From Tenacibaculum todarodis (GTDB lineage Bacteria; Bacteroidota; Bacteroidia; Flavobacteriales; Flavobacteriaceae), in NCBI RefSeq assembly GCF_001889045.1, contig NZ_CP018155.1, forward strand, positions 1,552,001-1,616,000: a stretch of DNA of 64,000 nt. Direction: 5' to 3'. Shown one piece after another: positions 7,122 to 53,216 of this stretch. Under the pieces are notes generated by a model. It did not search any database. It was not told where the DNA came from and was given only the letters and a program-made list of their open reading frames with translations. Position 1 is the stretch's first letter. Each line of letters opens with the position of its first letter. The translations under genes and the position numbers were made by a program.

Positions 7122-8513
7122 CTAAATATTCTCTGCTAAAATCAACGCTTTATTTAACGCAGCTAACTTATTATTTACTTCTTGTAACTCCTTTTTTTCG
7201 TCGGAATGAATTACAATTCCGGCTCCAGCTTGCGAATACAACACGTTGTTTTTACTGACAAAAGAACGGATTGCAATCGCCAAATTTACCGAGCCATTTA
7301 AACCGATAATTCCGACAGCGCCACCATAAAATCCACGGGTTTGATTTTCATATTTGTTAATCAATTCCATCGCTTTGTATTTTGGCGCACCACTTAATGT
7401 TCCTGCCGGAAAAGTATCGCCAACAATTTCAATCGGATCTCCTTTTATTTTACCACGAACTGTTGAAACCAAGTGAATTACATGGCTAAAATACTGAACT
7501 TCTTTAAAAACCTCAACGGTAACATTATCTGCATGTTTGCTTAAATCGTTACGCGCTAAATCTACCAACATTACGTGTTCTGCTGTTTCTTTTTTGTCTT
7601 CAGAAAGTTTTTTACCTAACTTAATATCTTCAGCCATATCTCCAGTTCTTCTAAACGTTCCAGCAATTGGATTTATAGTTGCTTTTCCTTCGGAAATTTT
7701 AATTTGTGCTTCTGGTGAAGAACCCATTAATTTGAAACTTCCGTAGTCGAAATAAAATAAATATGGCGACGGATTTATAGAACGCAACGCTCTATACACA
7801 TTGAACTCGTCTCCTTTAAATTTTTGCTGAAATTGGCGTGATAATACCAGTTGAAAAACGTCTCCTCTTTTACAATGTTGTTTTGCTTTTCTTACATATT
7901 CTTTAAAATCTTCGTTGGTACAATTTGAAGTTTCATTACCAACAATTTCAAATTTTTGTGTATTGAAAGTTTGCGCTTCAATGATTGTTTCAATTTCAGA
8001 AATTCTTGATTCTGTGCCTTCTTCTATGTTTTCAATCAATGTTAATTCATCATTAAAATGATTGATTGCAATGATAAATCGATAAAAACTGTATTGCATC
8101 TGCGGAATTGCAGAAGGCGCATCTGGATTGTCGAACTTTATGGTTTCAAAATACTGCACAGAATCAAAAGTTGTGTAACCGTATAATCCGTTGAAAGATT
8201 TTAAATTTTCATCACAATTTAAATCTACATTATTACAAAATCCATCAAATAACTCATAGAAATTACCATCAATTTTATGATTATCTACTTCTCTACCTTT
8301 ATAGTTCGTAGAAAAAACGTTCTTATCTGCTTTCATCGAAAAAACAGGTTCAATAGCTATAAAAGAAAAACTTTCTTCTTTACTATGATAGTCAGAACTC
8401 TCTAATAACAAGGTGTTGGCAAACTTATCTCTAAAGCGCAAATACAATCCTACAGGAGTAATTGTGTCTGAAATTCGTTTTTTTGTTATCGTATTAAATT
8501 TTATTTTCTTCAT
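7122..8513 (-). CDS. trpE: Anthranilate synthase component I
   Basis: Makes anthranilate from chorismate with TrpG; first committed step and usual site of Trp feedback. 463 residues. Chorismate-binding motifs are present: FQLVLSRQF, NPSPYLFYFDYG, the long IAGTFRRTGD and MLVDLARNDL segment, and FPAGTLSGAPK. The N-terminal LLESSD motif, which contributes to Trp binding in feedback-sensitive enzymes, is visible, so feedback inhibition is likely. First structural gene of the operon, preceded by a Trp-codon leader peptide and terminator hairpin. Confidence 0.96.
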   Translation of the reverse strand: MKKIKFNTITKKRISDTITPVGLYLRFRDKFANTLLLESSDYHSKEESFSFIAIEPVFSMKADKNVFSTNYKGREVDNHKIDGNFYELFDGFCNNVDLNCDENLKSFNGLYGYTTFDSVQYFETIKFDNPDAPSAIPQMQYSFYRFIIAINHFNDELTLIENIEEGTESRISEIETIIEAQTFNTQKFEIVGNETSNCTNEDFKEYVRKAKQHCKRGDVFQLVLSRQFQQKFKGDEFNVYRALRSINPSPYLFYFDYGSFKLMGSSPEAQIKISEGKATINPIAGTFRRTGDMAEDIKLGKKLSEDKKETAEHVMLVDLARNDLSKHADNVTVEVFKEVQYFSHVIHLVSTVRGKIKGDPIEIVGDTFPAGTLSGAPKYKAMELINKYENQTRGFYGGAVGIIGLNGSVNLAIAIRSFVSKNNVLYSQAGAGIVIHSDEKKELQEVNNKLAALNKALILAENI

Positions 8514-8525
8514 TTTATTAAATTG

Positions 8526-8556
8526 AAAAAGGCTTATCGTGAGATAAGCCTTTTTT
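8526..8556 (-). terminator. trp operon attenuator terminator
   Basis: On the minus strand GGCTTATC (8550-8543) pairs with GATAAGCC (8538-8531) across a four-base TCAC loop, extended by A:U pairs and followed by a run of Us. It stands between the Trp leader peptide and trpE. An upstream GTGAGAATAA (8586-8577) can pair with TTATCTCAC (8547-8539) as antiterminator. Confidence 0.88.
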
Positions 8557-8589
8557 ATATTTTTTACATATAGGATTTATTCTCACTTA

Positions 8590-8637
8590 TTAATTAAGAG
8601 AGTTCCACCACCAAGATATGTTTAATTGTTTATTCAT
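8590..8637 (-). CDS. trpL: trp operon leader peptide with three consecutive Trp codons
   Basis: Fifteen codons, MNKQLNISWWWNSLN, with TGG TGG TGG at 8613-8605, ending at TAA 8592-8590. It starts eight bases past a TACTTTTG -7 box and stands before a terminator hairpin. A segment overlapping its last codons (CTCTCTTA, 8602-8595) can pair with TAAGTGAG (8589-8582); that segment in turn overlaps the antiterminator strand. This is the classical 1:2, 2:3, 3:4 layout of ribosome-mediated attenuation: ribosomes stalled for Trp-tRNA would free the antiterminator. Confidence 0.88.
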   Translation of the reverse strand: MNKQLNISWWWNSLN

Positions 8638-8644
8638 TGTGCAA

Positions 8645-8675
8645 CAAAAGTAAGGTAGATTTTTATATTAAACAA
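8645..8675 (-). promoter_or_regulatory. trp operon promoter
   Basis: TTG at 8675-8673, a 20-bp spacer and TACTTTTG at 8652-8645 fit the flavobacterial consensus exactly. Confidence 0.8.
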
Positions 8676-19462: not shown

Positions 19463-19507
19463 ATTCTTTTGAAACCTCGCAGAAAATCGAGAAACATTTC
19501 TTTAATT

Positions 19508-19537
19508 AAAAAAGCCTTCCAAAATTTGGAAGGCTTT
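19508..19537 (-). terminator. Attenuator terminator of the gatCAB-aspS operon
   Basis: On the minus strand AAAGCCTTCC (19537-19528) pairs with GGAAGGCTTT (19520-19511) around a seven-base loop, then a U-run. It is internal to the gat leader: pyc is divergent, so no other gene ends here. A second GGAAGG (19562-19557) upstream can pair with the CCTTCC of the first arm. Confidence 0.88.
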
Positions 19538-19565
19538 ATATATTTCTAAACAACAACCTTCCGTC

Positions 19566-19613
19566 CTATAAATTAGGATTATTGAAATTACGATTGTTAT
19601 TATTGTTTGTCAT
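19566..19613 (-). CDS. Asparagine-rich leader peptide of the gatCAB-aspS operon
   Basis: Fifteen codons, MTNNNNNRNFNNPNL, ending at TAG 19568-19566; nine are Asn, five in a row. It follows a TATATTTG -7 box by about 18 bases and precedes an intrinsic terminator. The AAC AAT AAT codons can pair with GUUGUUGUU (19557-19549), which adjoins the GGAAGG antiterminator strand. Ribosomes stalled for Asn-tRNA would therefore break that pairing, let GGAAGG capture CCUUCC and prevent termination. The operon makes Asn-tRNA if its AspRS is non-discriminating, so the logic is self-consistent. I know of no description of it. Confidence 0.8.
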   Translation of the reverse strand: MTNNNNNRNFNNPNL

Positions 19614-19630
19614 TTTTGTTATATTACTGA

Positions 19631-19638
19631 CAAATATA
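19631..19638 (-). promoter_or_regulatory. gat operon promoter -7 box
   Basis: TATATTTG fits TAnnTTTG; the nearest upstream TTG is at a short 16-bp spacing, so the -33 element is weak or different. Confidence 0.65.
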
Positions 19639-19940: not shown

Positions 19941-22900
19941 ATGAAAATCAAAAAAGTACTTGTCGCAAACAGAGGAGAAATCGCTATTAGAATTTTTAGA
20001 GCTTGTACAGAAATAAGCGTTAAAACTGTAGGAATTTACACCTTTGAGGACAGATATTCTCTACACAGATATAAAGCTGACGAATCTTACCAAATTGGAG
20101 AGAATAACGAACCCTTAAAGCCTTATTTAAACATTGATGAAATTATTAGAGTTGCTTTAGAAAGTGGCGCTGATGCGATACATCCTGGTTATGGATTTTT
20201 ATCTGAAAATGCAAATCTTGCTCAAAAATGTAAAGACAACGGTCTTATTTTTGTTGGACCAAAAGTGTCTGTTTTAAAATCTTTAGGTGATAAAATCACC
20301 GCAAAAGAAGTTGCTGTTGCTAACAATATTCCAATTATTAAAAGTAATGACAAACCTTTAAAAGATATTGAAACTGCTTTAAGCGAAGCTGATAAAATCG
20401 GCTACCCTATTATGCTAAAAGCCGCTTCTGGTGGTGGCGGAAGAGGAATGCGTGTTATTAGAAAAGCAGATGAATTAAAACGTGCTTTTAACGAAAGTAA
20501 GCGTGAAGCTTTAAATGCTTTTGGAGACGATACTGTTTTTCTTGAAAAGTTTGTTGAAAACCCAAAACATATTGAAATTCAGATTGTTGCCGACAATTAT
20601 GGAAATACAGTTCATCTTTTTGAACGTGACTGCTCTGTGCAACGTCGTTACCAAAAAGTAATTGAATTTGCACCTTCGTTTGATTTAGCACAAGAAACAA
20701 AAGATGCACTTTACACATACGCAATTAACATTTGTAAAGCTGTAAACTATAATAATATTGGTACTGTAGAATTTTTAGTTGATGATGATGGTTCTATATA
20801 TTTTATTGAAGTAAACCCACGAGTTCAGGTAGAACATACCGTTACCGAAGTAGTAACAAATATCGACTTAATTAAGACTCAATTATTTATTGCTGGCGGC
20901 TATAAATTGGCAGATCAGCAAATTAAAATACCAAATCAAGAAGCAGTAAAAGTAAATGGTTACGCTTTACAATGTAGAATTACTACGGAAGATCCTCAAA
21001 ATGATTTTAAACCAGATTATGGAGAAATTACAACCTACAGAAGTGCTTCAGGGTTTGGAATTCGTTTAGACGCAGGTAGCGTGTATCAAGGTGCAATTAT
21101 TTCACCTTTTTTCGATTCTATGTTGGTAAAAGTTACTGCAAATAGTAGAACTTTAGACGGTGCTTGCAGAAAAGTACGAAGAGCTTTAGCAGAATTCAGA
21201 ATTAGAGGTGTAAAAACAAATATGCCGTTTTTAGATAATATTCTAAAACACGAAACTTTTAGAAAAGGAGAAGTTACCGTAAACTTTATCAAACAAAATC
21301 CTGATTTATTCAATTTTAAAGCCCCAAGAAATAGAGCTACAAAATTAGTTACCTATTTAGGTGATGTTATTGTAAACGGAAATTCGGATGTAAAAAAATT
21401 AGATCCAACAAAAACGTTTGTAACACCTGTTGTTCCTAAATTTGATGCAAACGCAAGTTTCCCGAAGGGAACAAAAGATTTATTAACAGAATTAGGCCCA
21501 GATAAATTTTCTCAGTGGTTAAAAAATGAAAAGAAAGTTCATTTTACAGACACCACAATGCGTGATGCACATCAGAGTTTATTGGCAACCAGAATGCGAA
21601 CCTACGATATGCTAAAAGTTGCTGAAGGATATGCAAAAAACAATCCGAATATCTTTAGTATGGAAGTTTGGGGAGGCGCAACTTTTGATGTTTGTATGCG
21701 TTTTTTACAGGAAAATCCGTGGGAACGATTGCAATTATTACGTAAATCGATGCCAAACGTATTGCTTCAAATGCTAATTAGAGGTTCAAACGGAGTTGGT
21801 TACACCGCATATTCAGACAATTTAATTGAAAGTTTTGTGCAACAATCTTGGGAAAACGGAGTGGATATTTTTAGAATTTTCGATTCGTTAAACTGGATGA
21901 AATCAATTGCACCTTGTATAGAGCACGTTAGAAATAAAACGGACGGTTTAGCCGAAGGATCAATCTGCTATACAAACGATATATTAGACCCTAAAAACAA
22001 AAAATACAATCTTAAATACTTCACAACTTTAGCAAAAGATATCGAAAATGCAGGTGCGCATATTCTTGCCATAAAAGACATGGCTGGTTTATTAAAACCA
22101 TATGCAGCATTCGAATTGGTTTCAGCATTAAAACAAGAGGTAAATATTCCTATTCATTTACATACTCACGACACTTCATCTATTCAATCAGCAACCTATT
22201 TAAAAGCTATTGAAGCAGGTGTAGACGTTGTTGATGTTGCATTGGGTGGTTTATCTGGATTAACATCTCAACCTAACTTTAATTCGGTTGCCGAAATGAT
22301 GAAATTCAACGAAAGAGAAAGTGATTTAAATATCGATTCTTTAAATGAATATTCTAATTATTGGGAAACTGTGAGAGAATATTATTATCCGTTTGAATCT
22401 GGTTTAAAAGCGGGTTCTGGTGAAGTTTTTAAACACGAAATTCCTGGTGGTCAATATTCAAATTTAAAACCACAAGCGCAAGCATTAGGCTTGGAAGATA
22501 GATTCCACGAAATAACTAAAATGTATGGCGATGTAAACCTACTTTTTGGAGATATTGTAAAAGTAACTCCAAGTTCTAAAGTTGTTGGAGACATGGCGCA
22601 ATATTTAGTGAGTAATAATCTAACAGTACAAGATGTTTTAGAACGCGGTGACACTATTTCATTTCCACAATCTGTAGTGAGCTTTTTTAAAGGAGATTTA
22701 GGGCAACCCGTTGGTGGATTCCCAAAAGACCTTCAGAAGTTGATTTTAAAAGATGAAGCACCTTACACAGATAGACCAAACGCTCATATTGAACCTTTAG
22801 ACATTGATGCTGAATATGCCGATTTCAAAAAAATATTTGAAAACGATTTAAGTAGGAAAATTGATTTTACGGATTTCTTATCGTATAAACTATATCCAAA

Positions 22901-41185: not shown

Positions 41186-41258
41186 GTTTAGCCCTGATTG
41201 AAGTGGCATCCTTTTGCTTTTTCGGCAAAAGATAAAACGGAAAGCGGGAAATAGCTTC
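41186..41258. repeat. Family B dispersed repeat
   Basis: Runs from GTTTAGCCCTGATTGAAGTGGCATCC through a CTTTTGC/GCAAAAG hairpin to GGAAAGCGGGAAATAGCTTC. Confidence 0.82.
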
Positions 41259-53099: not shown

Positions 53100-53144
53100 A
53101 AAATCACTAATTAGTTAAATAATAAAGCTACCTTTATAAATTAG

Positions 53145-53216
53145 CTTAGCCCTGATTGAAGTGGCATCCTTTTTTCTTTTTCAGAAAAAAGATATAACGG
53201 AAAGCAGGAAATAGCT
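53145..53216. repeat. Family B dispersed repeat
   Basis: CTTAGCCCTGATTGAAGTGGCATCC, a TTTTTTCT/AGAAAAAA hairpin, then GGAAAGCAGGAAATAGCT. The hairpin covaries with the 41186 copy. Confidence 0.82.

Follow-up and report, generated by a model that had tools for sequence, protein, structure and literature searches.

The trp, his, leu, thr, ilv and phe attenuators each place, before the first gene of an operon, a short translated ORF with many codons for the amino acid made by the pathway and a mutually exclusive antiterminator and terminator, and the leader described here upstream of gatC shares both features. T-box control of aspS2-gatCAB in Clostridium acetobutylicum, reportedly described by Saad et al. 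in 2012 and 2013, resembles what we predict for the gatC leader in providing feedback on tRNA-dependent Asn-tRNA formation through the charging of tRNA-Asn. The Bacteroidete tryptophan leader (RF01692) comes from the same phylum and has the same layout. For Flavobacterium psychrophilum, one paper presents strong indications that operons for amino-acid biosynthesis are preceded by leader-peptide attenuators; its main text, in its available part, does not name asparagine, and its tables, which cover 64 structured 5' regions, may list an asnB leader (PMC9723704). According to the available text of a further paper, Bdellovibrio, Deinococcus and Thermus synthesize asparagine in a tRNA-dependent manner with both AsnRS and GlnRS present, and among such genera a second AspRS occurs only in Deinococcus-Thermus (PMC4206432).

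Within the window (the whole 64,000-nucleotide stretch of DNA analysed), we found a locus on the minus strand that, judging from its sequence, very probably encodes a ribosome-mediated attenuator which is predicted to sense charged tRNA-Asn and to control gatC-gatA-gatB::aspS, likely the asparagine route. The earlier note had described a TATATTTG box, a 15-codon ORF with nine Asn codons, five of them consecutive, and a perfect terminator, and all three lie where it had placed them. The box (19638-19631) matches TAnnTTTG, which we take to be the consensus of the Bacteroidota-type -7 promoter box, and the leader transcript is predicted to start about 7 nt downstream. The leader ORF, MTNNNNNRNFNNPNL followed by UAG, spans 19613-19566, and GGAAGGUUGUUGUU (19562-19549) lies 3' of its stop codon. 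The 1:2 hairpin (19597-19550) pairs the Asn codons and the Pro-Asn-stop region with 19568-19550. Segment 2, GGAAGGUU (19562-19555), begins 4 nt past the stop codon and is the predicted 5' arm of an antiterminator. Segment 3, AGCCUUCC (19535-19528), is common to the antiterminator, with segment 2, and the terminator, with segment 4. The terminator hairpin 3:4 (19537-19511) is a perfect 11 bp helix followed by a U-run (19513-19508).

The region 19500-19615 folds better than all of 200 dinucleotide shuffles (z -4.38). The window has 530 ORFs that start with ATG and span 8-30 codons; in only one of them, the leader ORF, are at least half of the residues Asn, and 30 first-order Markov windows generated as a chance control gave one such ORF in 24,288. 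The next upstream gene, a pyruvate carboxylase ORF starting at 19941, is divergent from gatC, thus the terminator does not mark where any known gene upstream would end; that candidate reading was rejected since the minus strand holds no such gene. We found no second gatC-type leader in the genome, where the covariance model described below gave only a 43.5-bit match at background level, and no similar leader, by the criteria used, in the 1467 nt upstream of its asnS. The window also contains a trp leader, MNKQLNISWWWNSLN, with three Trp codons (approximately 8637-8590, minus strand). It precedes a trpE-like ORF (7122-8513, minus strand) and then a trpG-like ORF, both named from sequence. The RF01692 match in the window is restricted to 8543-8657, over this leader, and leaves the gatC leader unmatched. 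The presence of a Trp leader on trpE indicates that the genome uses leader-type control. Two Flavo-1 RNAs (RF01705) lie on the plus strand at 41186-41255 and 53144-53215.

The leader is followed by three minus-strand ORFs that overlap or nearly touch. The first, gatC (19424-19155, 89 aa), was assigned from its position and a TIGR00135 match (E 4.3e-05, 23.7 bits) that does not reach the cut-off of 47.1. The second, gatA (19152-17752, 466 aa), would encode the glutamine amidohydrolase subunit; TIGR00132 is its best family by far despite a score of 431.2 bits, short of the cut-off of 481.1. The earlier note had listed aspS as a separate gene of the operon, and this had to be corrected, as it is fused to gatB in a single 1110-codon ORF (17752-14420, 1110 aa). 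Residues ~14-474 of the fusion form the GatB part (NF004012, 391.4 bits, cut-off 338) and residues ~517-1108 a bacterial-type AspRS (NF001750, 715.7 bits, cut-off 443). GatC, GatA and GatB occur together, with GatB alone of the three scoring above its cut-off. An Asn-rich linker in GatC, TSNNNAVNTNHNNAVSL (19330-19274, minus strand), is found in most fetched loci, leaderless ones included.

The gatB::aspS fusion was found in 20 of 120 Flavobacteriaceae genomes, the other 100 giving no match to the GatB part at E 1e-60, and in 51 of 299 genomes in a larger draw from the family. A draw of 392 genomes across the phylum contained four fusions, all from Flavobacteriaceae. The fusions of relatives are open frames of 1115-1130 codons with 78-86% identity, and all 20 fusion genomes also encode a separate AspRS.

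We compared the leader region in 100 sequences, namely the window and 99 gatA-bearing loci (19 from fusion genomes and the best 80 of 234 matches by identity). A leader is present in 46 of them, and after five identical copies were dropped, 41 distinct homologues remained. Each contains 6-10 Asn, encoded overall by 287 AAT and 71 AAC codons. The core NNNNNNFNNPN and the UAG stop codon are kept across the leaders, one locus ending later, while the ends of the peptide vary around the constant Asn core. At two positions Asn is kept as the codon varies (22 AAT to 16 AAC, and 27 to 10), and it is also kept outside any helix, at positions -7 to -5. Some other Asn positions are fixed as AAT in 41/41 leaders, and there the codon also lies inside a helix. 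On this alignment, part of the conservation of the Asn codons is owed to RNA pairing and not all of it to the peptide. All 41 leader loci carry a TAnnTTTG box no more than 80 nt ahead of the ATG of the leader. The earlier note had stated that a transcription start downstream of the terminator would count against its reading; in the stretch from the terminator to gatC, a strict TAnnTTTG box was found at one of the 41 loci and not in the window.

A covariance model built from the leaders and run on the 299 Flavobacteriaceae genomes gave 31 strong matches (122-160 bits), at least 12 of which were already in its training set. The next best match, at 52.5 bits, represents background, so that a search tally of 106 genomes at E 0.001 is mostly noise. 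All 30 strong matches that were fetched comprise a leader and then gatC, 75-141 nt past the leader stop codon. The fusion is present in 30 of the 31 genomes with a strong match. In the remaining one (G108), neither the fusion nor AsnB was called, and the leader and gatC lie at a contig end. The leader is absent from 21 of the 51 fusion genomes, thus the operon can function in its absence. A quick GatA tree, with L109 left out of the count because too little of its upstream sequence was available, requires no fewer than 14 changes to explain where the leader occurs, and well supported branches force at least five of these. Repeated loss of an old leader would fit this tree, and gains are also possible. 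In most leaderless loci we noted by eye a conserved, promoter-like AAACTTTYGTAAWTT motif about 45 nt upstream of gatC. The strict TAnnTTTG box matches 12 of 47 leaderless loci and a relaxed form 25 of 47, and on these counts we rejected the idea of a conserved promoter box in all of them. The locus of Polaribacter sp. Hel1_85 (L059) has no Asn leader; in the corresponding position it retains a hairpin resembling a terminator, AGCTCGATCGAGCT and a T-run, which is perhaps a leader remnant.

Next, we assessed the three helices across the 41 leaders. For helix 3:4, 98.7% of 447 cells are paired and 12 are altered on both sides, a level that none of 500 shuffles reached. Helix 1:2 forms standard pairs in 99.8% of 574 cells, with one pair altered on both sides in three sequences (L069, L071 and L107, two of them near-copies), where the switch of a Pro codon to Ser is accompanied by a matching change past the stop codon. 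Pairing in helix 2:3 is kept in 89.9% of 365 cells, compared with 30-65% when one strand is slid against the other. Its seven inner pairs hold in 39-41 of the 41 leaders, except for the outer G-C (35/41). The pairing level of helix 2:3 was reached by 41 of 500 shuffles, and its covariation in the 41 gatC leaders did not exceed that of shuffles (424/500 reached the score), so that support for this helix is from conservation and the sliding control. Thus, the alignment that the earlier note had proposed agrees with its reading, in that the Asn codons and helices 2:3 and 3:4 are kept in the 41 distinct leaders. Its call for covariation in all three helices was answered for 3:4, through one pair in three sequences for 1:2, and not for 2:3.

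We then modelled folding at equilibrium with an assumed ribosome footprint. With a ribosome on the first six Asn codons, helix 2:3 forms in the nascent RNA of the model with a mean of 0.97 (lowest 0.02), and with the ribosome on the stop codon it is blocked in 41/41 leaders. Even when the ribosome is taken away, the nascent RNA adopts 2:3 (mean 0.87), which makes helix 1:2 a weak competitor and, in the model, at most a helper in choosing the hairpin. Helix 3:4 always wins over 2:3 in the finished transcript, and the modelled switch must therefore be kinetic. Of the 1:2, 2:3, 3:4 logic put forward in the earlier note, the conserved 2:3 and 3:4 helices stand, and the part given to 1:2 is not borne out by the model, which suggests that the antiterminator is blocked by the ribosome at the stop codon, not by helix 1:2.

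These elements suggest the following mechanism. Transcription would begin at the TATATTTG box and a ribosome would immediately start on the leader. A shortage of Asn-tRNA would make this ribosome stall on the run of Asn codons, leaving segment 2, with its GGAAGG, free to pair with the CCUUCC of segment 3. With 2:3 formed, there would be no terminator and RNA polymerase would read into gatC. Under ample Asn-tRNA, the ribosome would reach the stop codon and cover segment 2, and the 3:4 terminator would form. The choice would be kinetic and would turn on whether, by the time segment 3 emerges, the ribosome is already at the stop codon. The fused AspRS would aspartylate tRNA-Asn and GatCAB would amidate the product to Asn-tRNA-Asn, so that the signal would be the operon's own end product. 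AsnRS would be used when asparagine is supplied from outside.

The earlier note had proposed that the operon makes the Asn-tRNA it senses and had suggested a search for asnS. AsnRS was found in the genome, along with GlnRS and a second, separate AspRS. Among 60 genomes tested (20 with the fusion and 40 without), AsnRS is present in 60 and GlnRS in 59, including all 20 fusion genomes, thus GatCAB is needed for neither tRNA. The operon as sole source of Asn-tRNA was therefore rejected, and a role of GatCAB in Gln-tRNA formation is disfavoured. The presence of AsnRS, GlnRS and a separate AspRS indicates that the job of the operon is likely asparagine synthesis, and in this form, as a likely route to asparagine and not as the only source of Asn-tRNA, the proposal stands.

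The distribution of asparagine synthetases points the same way. We called the housekeeping AsnB orthologue at a cut-off of E 1e-130 or lower; among the matches, 11 are weaker, at 1e-142 to 1e-152. It is present in 225 of the 299 genomes, in none of the 51 with the fusion and in 225 of the 248 others (Fisher 6.5e-40, in a test that ignores kinship). The 23 genomes with neither fusion nor AsnB comprise 11 with AsnA, G108 with its leader and gatC, and 11 with none of these. AsnA was not found in any of the 20 fusion genomes tested of the 51, and the genome studied here gave no AsnB and no TIGR01536 or TIGR00669 (AsnA) match. Other proteins (572-642 codons) exceed the TIGR01536 cut-off in 8 of the 20 fusion genomes and may or may not make asparagine; the other 12, including the genome studied here, have no TIGR01536 match. 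Five genera in the draw of 299 hold both states (g1, g6, g45, g98 and g117), and g112 does so when the draws of 299 and 392 are joined. Several genera with both states indicate that swaps between fusion and AsnB recurred. This near-perfect exclusion, even within genera, provides natural swaps in which free and tRNA-bound asparagine synthesis can be compared directly, in their physiology and in their regulation.

Two positions in the fused AspRS bear on its specificity, those aligned with His31 and Gly83 of the P. aeruginosa enzyme, which presumably govern acceptance of tRNA-Asn. The fused enzymes have His at the first position in 20/20 genomes and Asp at the second. Among the 11 separate AspRSs, ten carry Lys and one carries Leu at the position of His31, and ten carry Lys at that of Gly83. 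Non-discrimination by the fused AspRS would thus be predicted from two residues. For the fused AspRS, the P. aeruginosa Asp/Asn enzyme gives the best PDB chain (452.4 bits); as a sign of relaxed specificity this similarity was dropped, since discriminating enzymes score within 5-16 bits. U1-A72, which GatCAB requires on tRNA-Asn according to the available text of PMC4206432, is present in all 30 tRNA-Asn genes found (28 of 30 loci, with the fusion or not). Because it is the same in fusion and non-fusion genomes, the acceptor pair is permissive only and was set aside as a discriminator. The proposed role of the operon would give a function to a fused protein that might otherwise be annotated as two housekeeping enzymes.

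We also examined 80 regions upstream of asnB in non-fusion genomes, 20 from the first set and the 60 closest to the AsnB of G064, a sample biased to the lineage of that genome. An Asn-rich leader was found in 31 of them (1/20 and 30/60; loci L211 and L216-L245), with peptides such as MLLFNLNNNNNNNPLP and MFILANNNNNNNNNAKT. L207, L214, L260 and L266 were not counted, as no matching terminator was seen. The order is an Asn-rich ORF, GAAACUUG, and then CCCGUCAAGUUUC and CUUGACGGG with a U-run. In the 30 leaders aligned (L232 was left out), pairing is seen in 99.6% of 239 antiterminator cells and in 98.9% of 265 terminator cells. The antiterminator covaries, one pair being G-C in 12 sequences and A-U in 13, and none of 500 shuffles scored as high. 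None of the listed matches to the gatC-leader model fall at the asnB sites. The asnB and gatC leaders have only their Asn codons and logic in common and differ in flanking residues and helices, and the sharing of Asn codons by unrelated RNAs argues that Asn-tRNA is the selected signal. Asn attenuation thus appears, from these sequences, to act on both alternative asparagine routes. We lean towards the wider view that Flavobacteriaceae place tRNA-Asn attenuation on two mutually exclusive routes through unrelated attenuators, of which the one on gatCA-gatB::aspS would be a self-closing loop. If true, the one-chain GatB-AspRS makes the charged tRNA that its leader reads, input and product being one, and asparagine joins the amino acids read by leader-peptide attenuation twice, through unrelated RNAs.

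Several other explanations of the gatC leader were weighed. The attenuator could be real and sense slow translation or another cue, with the Asn-rich frame a by-product of AU-rich pairing RNA. Helix 1:2, with its pairing in 99.8% of cells and several Asn codons fixed as AAT in 41/41 leaders, would suit such an origin. Retention of Asn despite switching between AAT and AAC, and outside the helices at -7 to -5, argues against it, as does the Asn-rich asnB leader with its other flanks and helices, and we regard this explanation as unlikely. We consider it quite unlikely that the ORF encodes a functional micropeptide and the hairpin serves as an ordinary terminator or processing site, with gatC transcribed from its own downstream promoter. 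The promoter-like motif about 45 nt upstream of gatC in leaderless relatives speaks for such a promoter. Against it, a strict TAnnTTTG box is missing from the stretch that separates terminator and gatC in the window and in 40 of the 41 leader loci, the minus strand has no gene ahead of the terminator, and the peptide varies at its ends but not in its Asn core.

The remaining alternatives concern the product and the sensor. GatCAB forms Gln-tRNA in many bacteria, and neither the GatA nor the GatC model reaches its curated cut-off, so GatCAB and the fused AspRS might serve another purpose, in Gln-tRNA formation or as a relic, with Asn not the regulated product. We judge this improbable, in view of GlnRS in all 20 fusion genomes tested, a fusion partner that is AspRS and not GluRS, and the mutual exclusion of operon and AsnB in 299 genomes. 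An untranslated T-box, or another riboswitch that binds tRNA or protein, would have its counterpart in the T-boxes that control the same pathway in Clostridium acetobutylicum. No Rfam family matches the leader at gathering score, and the matches at relaxed threshold, in L041 and L064, are sub-cut-off hits to Phe_leader and Thr_leader and not to a T-box, which makes an untranslated sensor extremely improbable. Translation-dependent sensing of Asn-tRNA is therefore the reading that we prefer, and the interpretation of the earlier note is supported at the level of sequence.

Comparison with known systems places the gatC leader as follows. In the sources searched, neither the gatC nor the asnB leader matches any Rfam family at gathering score, the Phe_leader family (RF01859) reaching 38.8 and 32.7 bits in two homologues against a gathering score of 55. 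Among the matches listed from the open-access literature, there was neither an attenuator with an Asn leader peptide nor a fusion of GatB with AspRS. In their available texts, PMC2965389, on leader peptides, mentions neither "asparagin" nor gatC, and PMC4206432 names no leader-peptide regulation. The earlier note knew of no published example, which holds for an Asn leader peptide among the matches listed and not for feedback on the pathway, published for the T-box. As in Bdellovibrio, Deinococcus and Thermus, AsnRS, GlnRS and GatCAB occur together with no housekeeping asparagine synthetase, and there is a second AspRS as in Deinococcus-Thermus, as far as the available text describes these (PMC4206432), but here that enzyme is bacterial-type and fused to GatB. 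The AspRS-GatC fusion (NF009460) and the Asn-transamidosomes (PDB 4wj3) likewise couple AspRS to the amidotransferase; unlike in NF009460, which scores 468.6 against a cut-off of 1379, the partner here is GatB. The C. acetobutylicum T-box binds tRNA without translation, whereas the gatC leader would act through a translated Asn-rich ORF and has no T-box match. Relative to the RF01692 trp leader, it differs in amino acid, sequence and operon. Relative to the trp, his, leu, thr, ilv and phe attenuators, its signal would be Asn, the operon product would be a charged tRNA and not a free amino acid, and helix 1:2 seems weak in the model. Thus, the mechanism is of a known kind, while the amino acid, the operon and the identity of product and sensed molecule are new within the literature searched.
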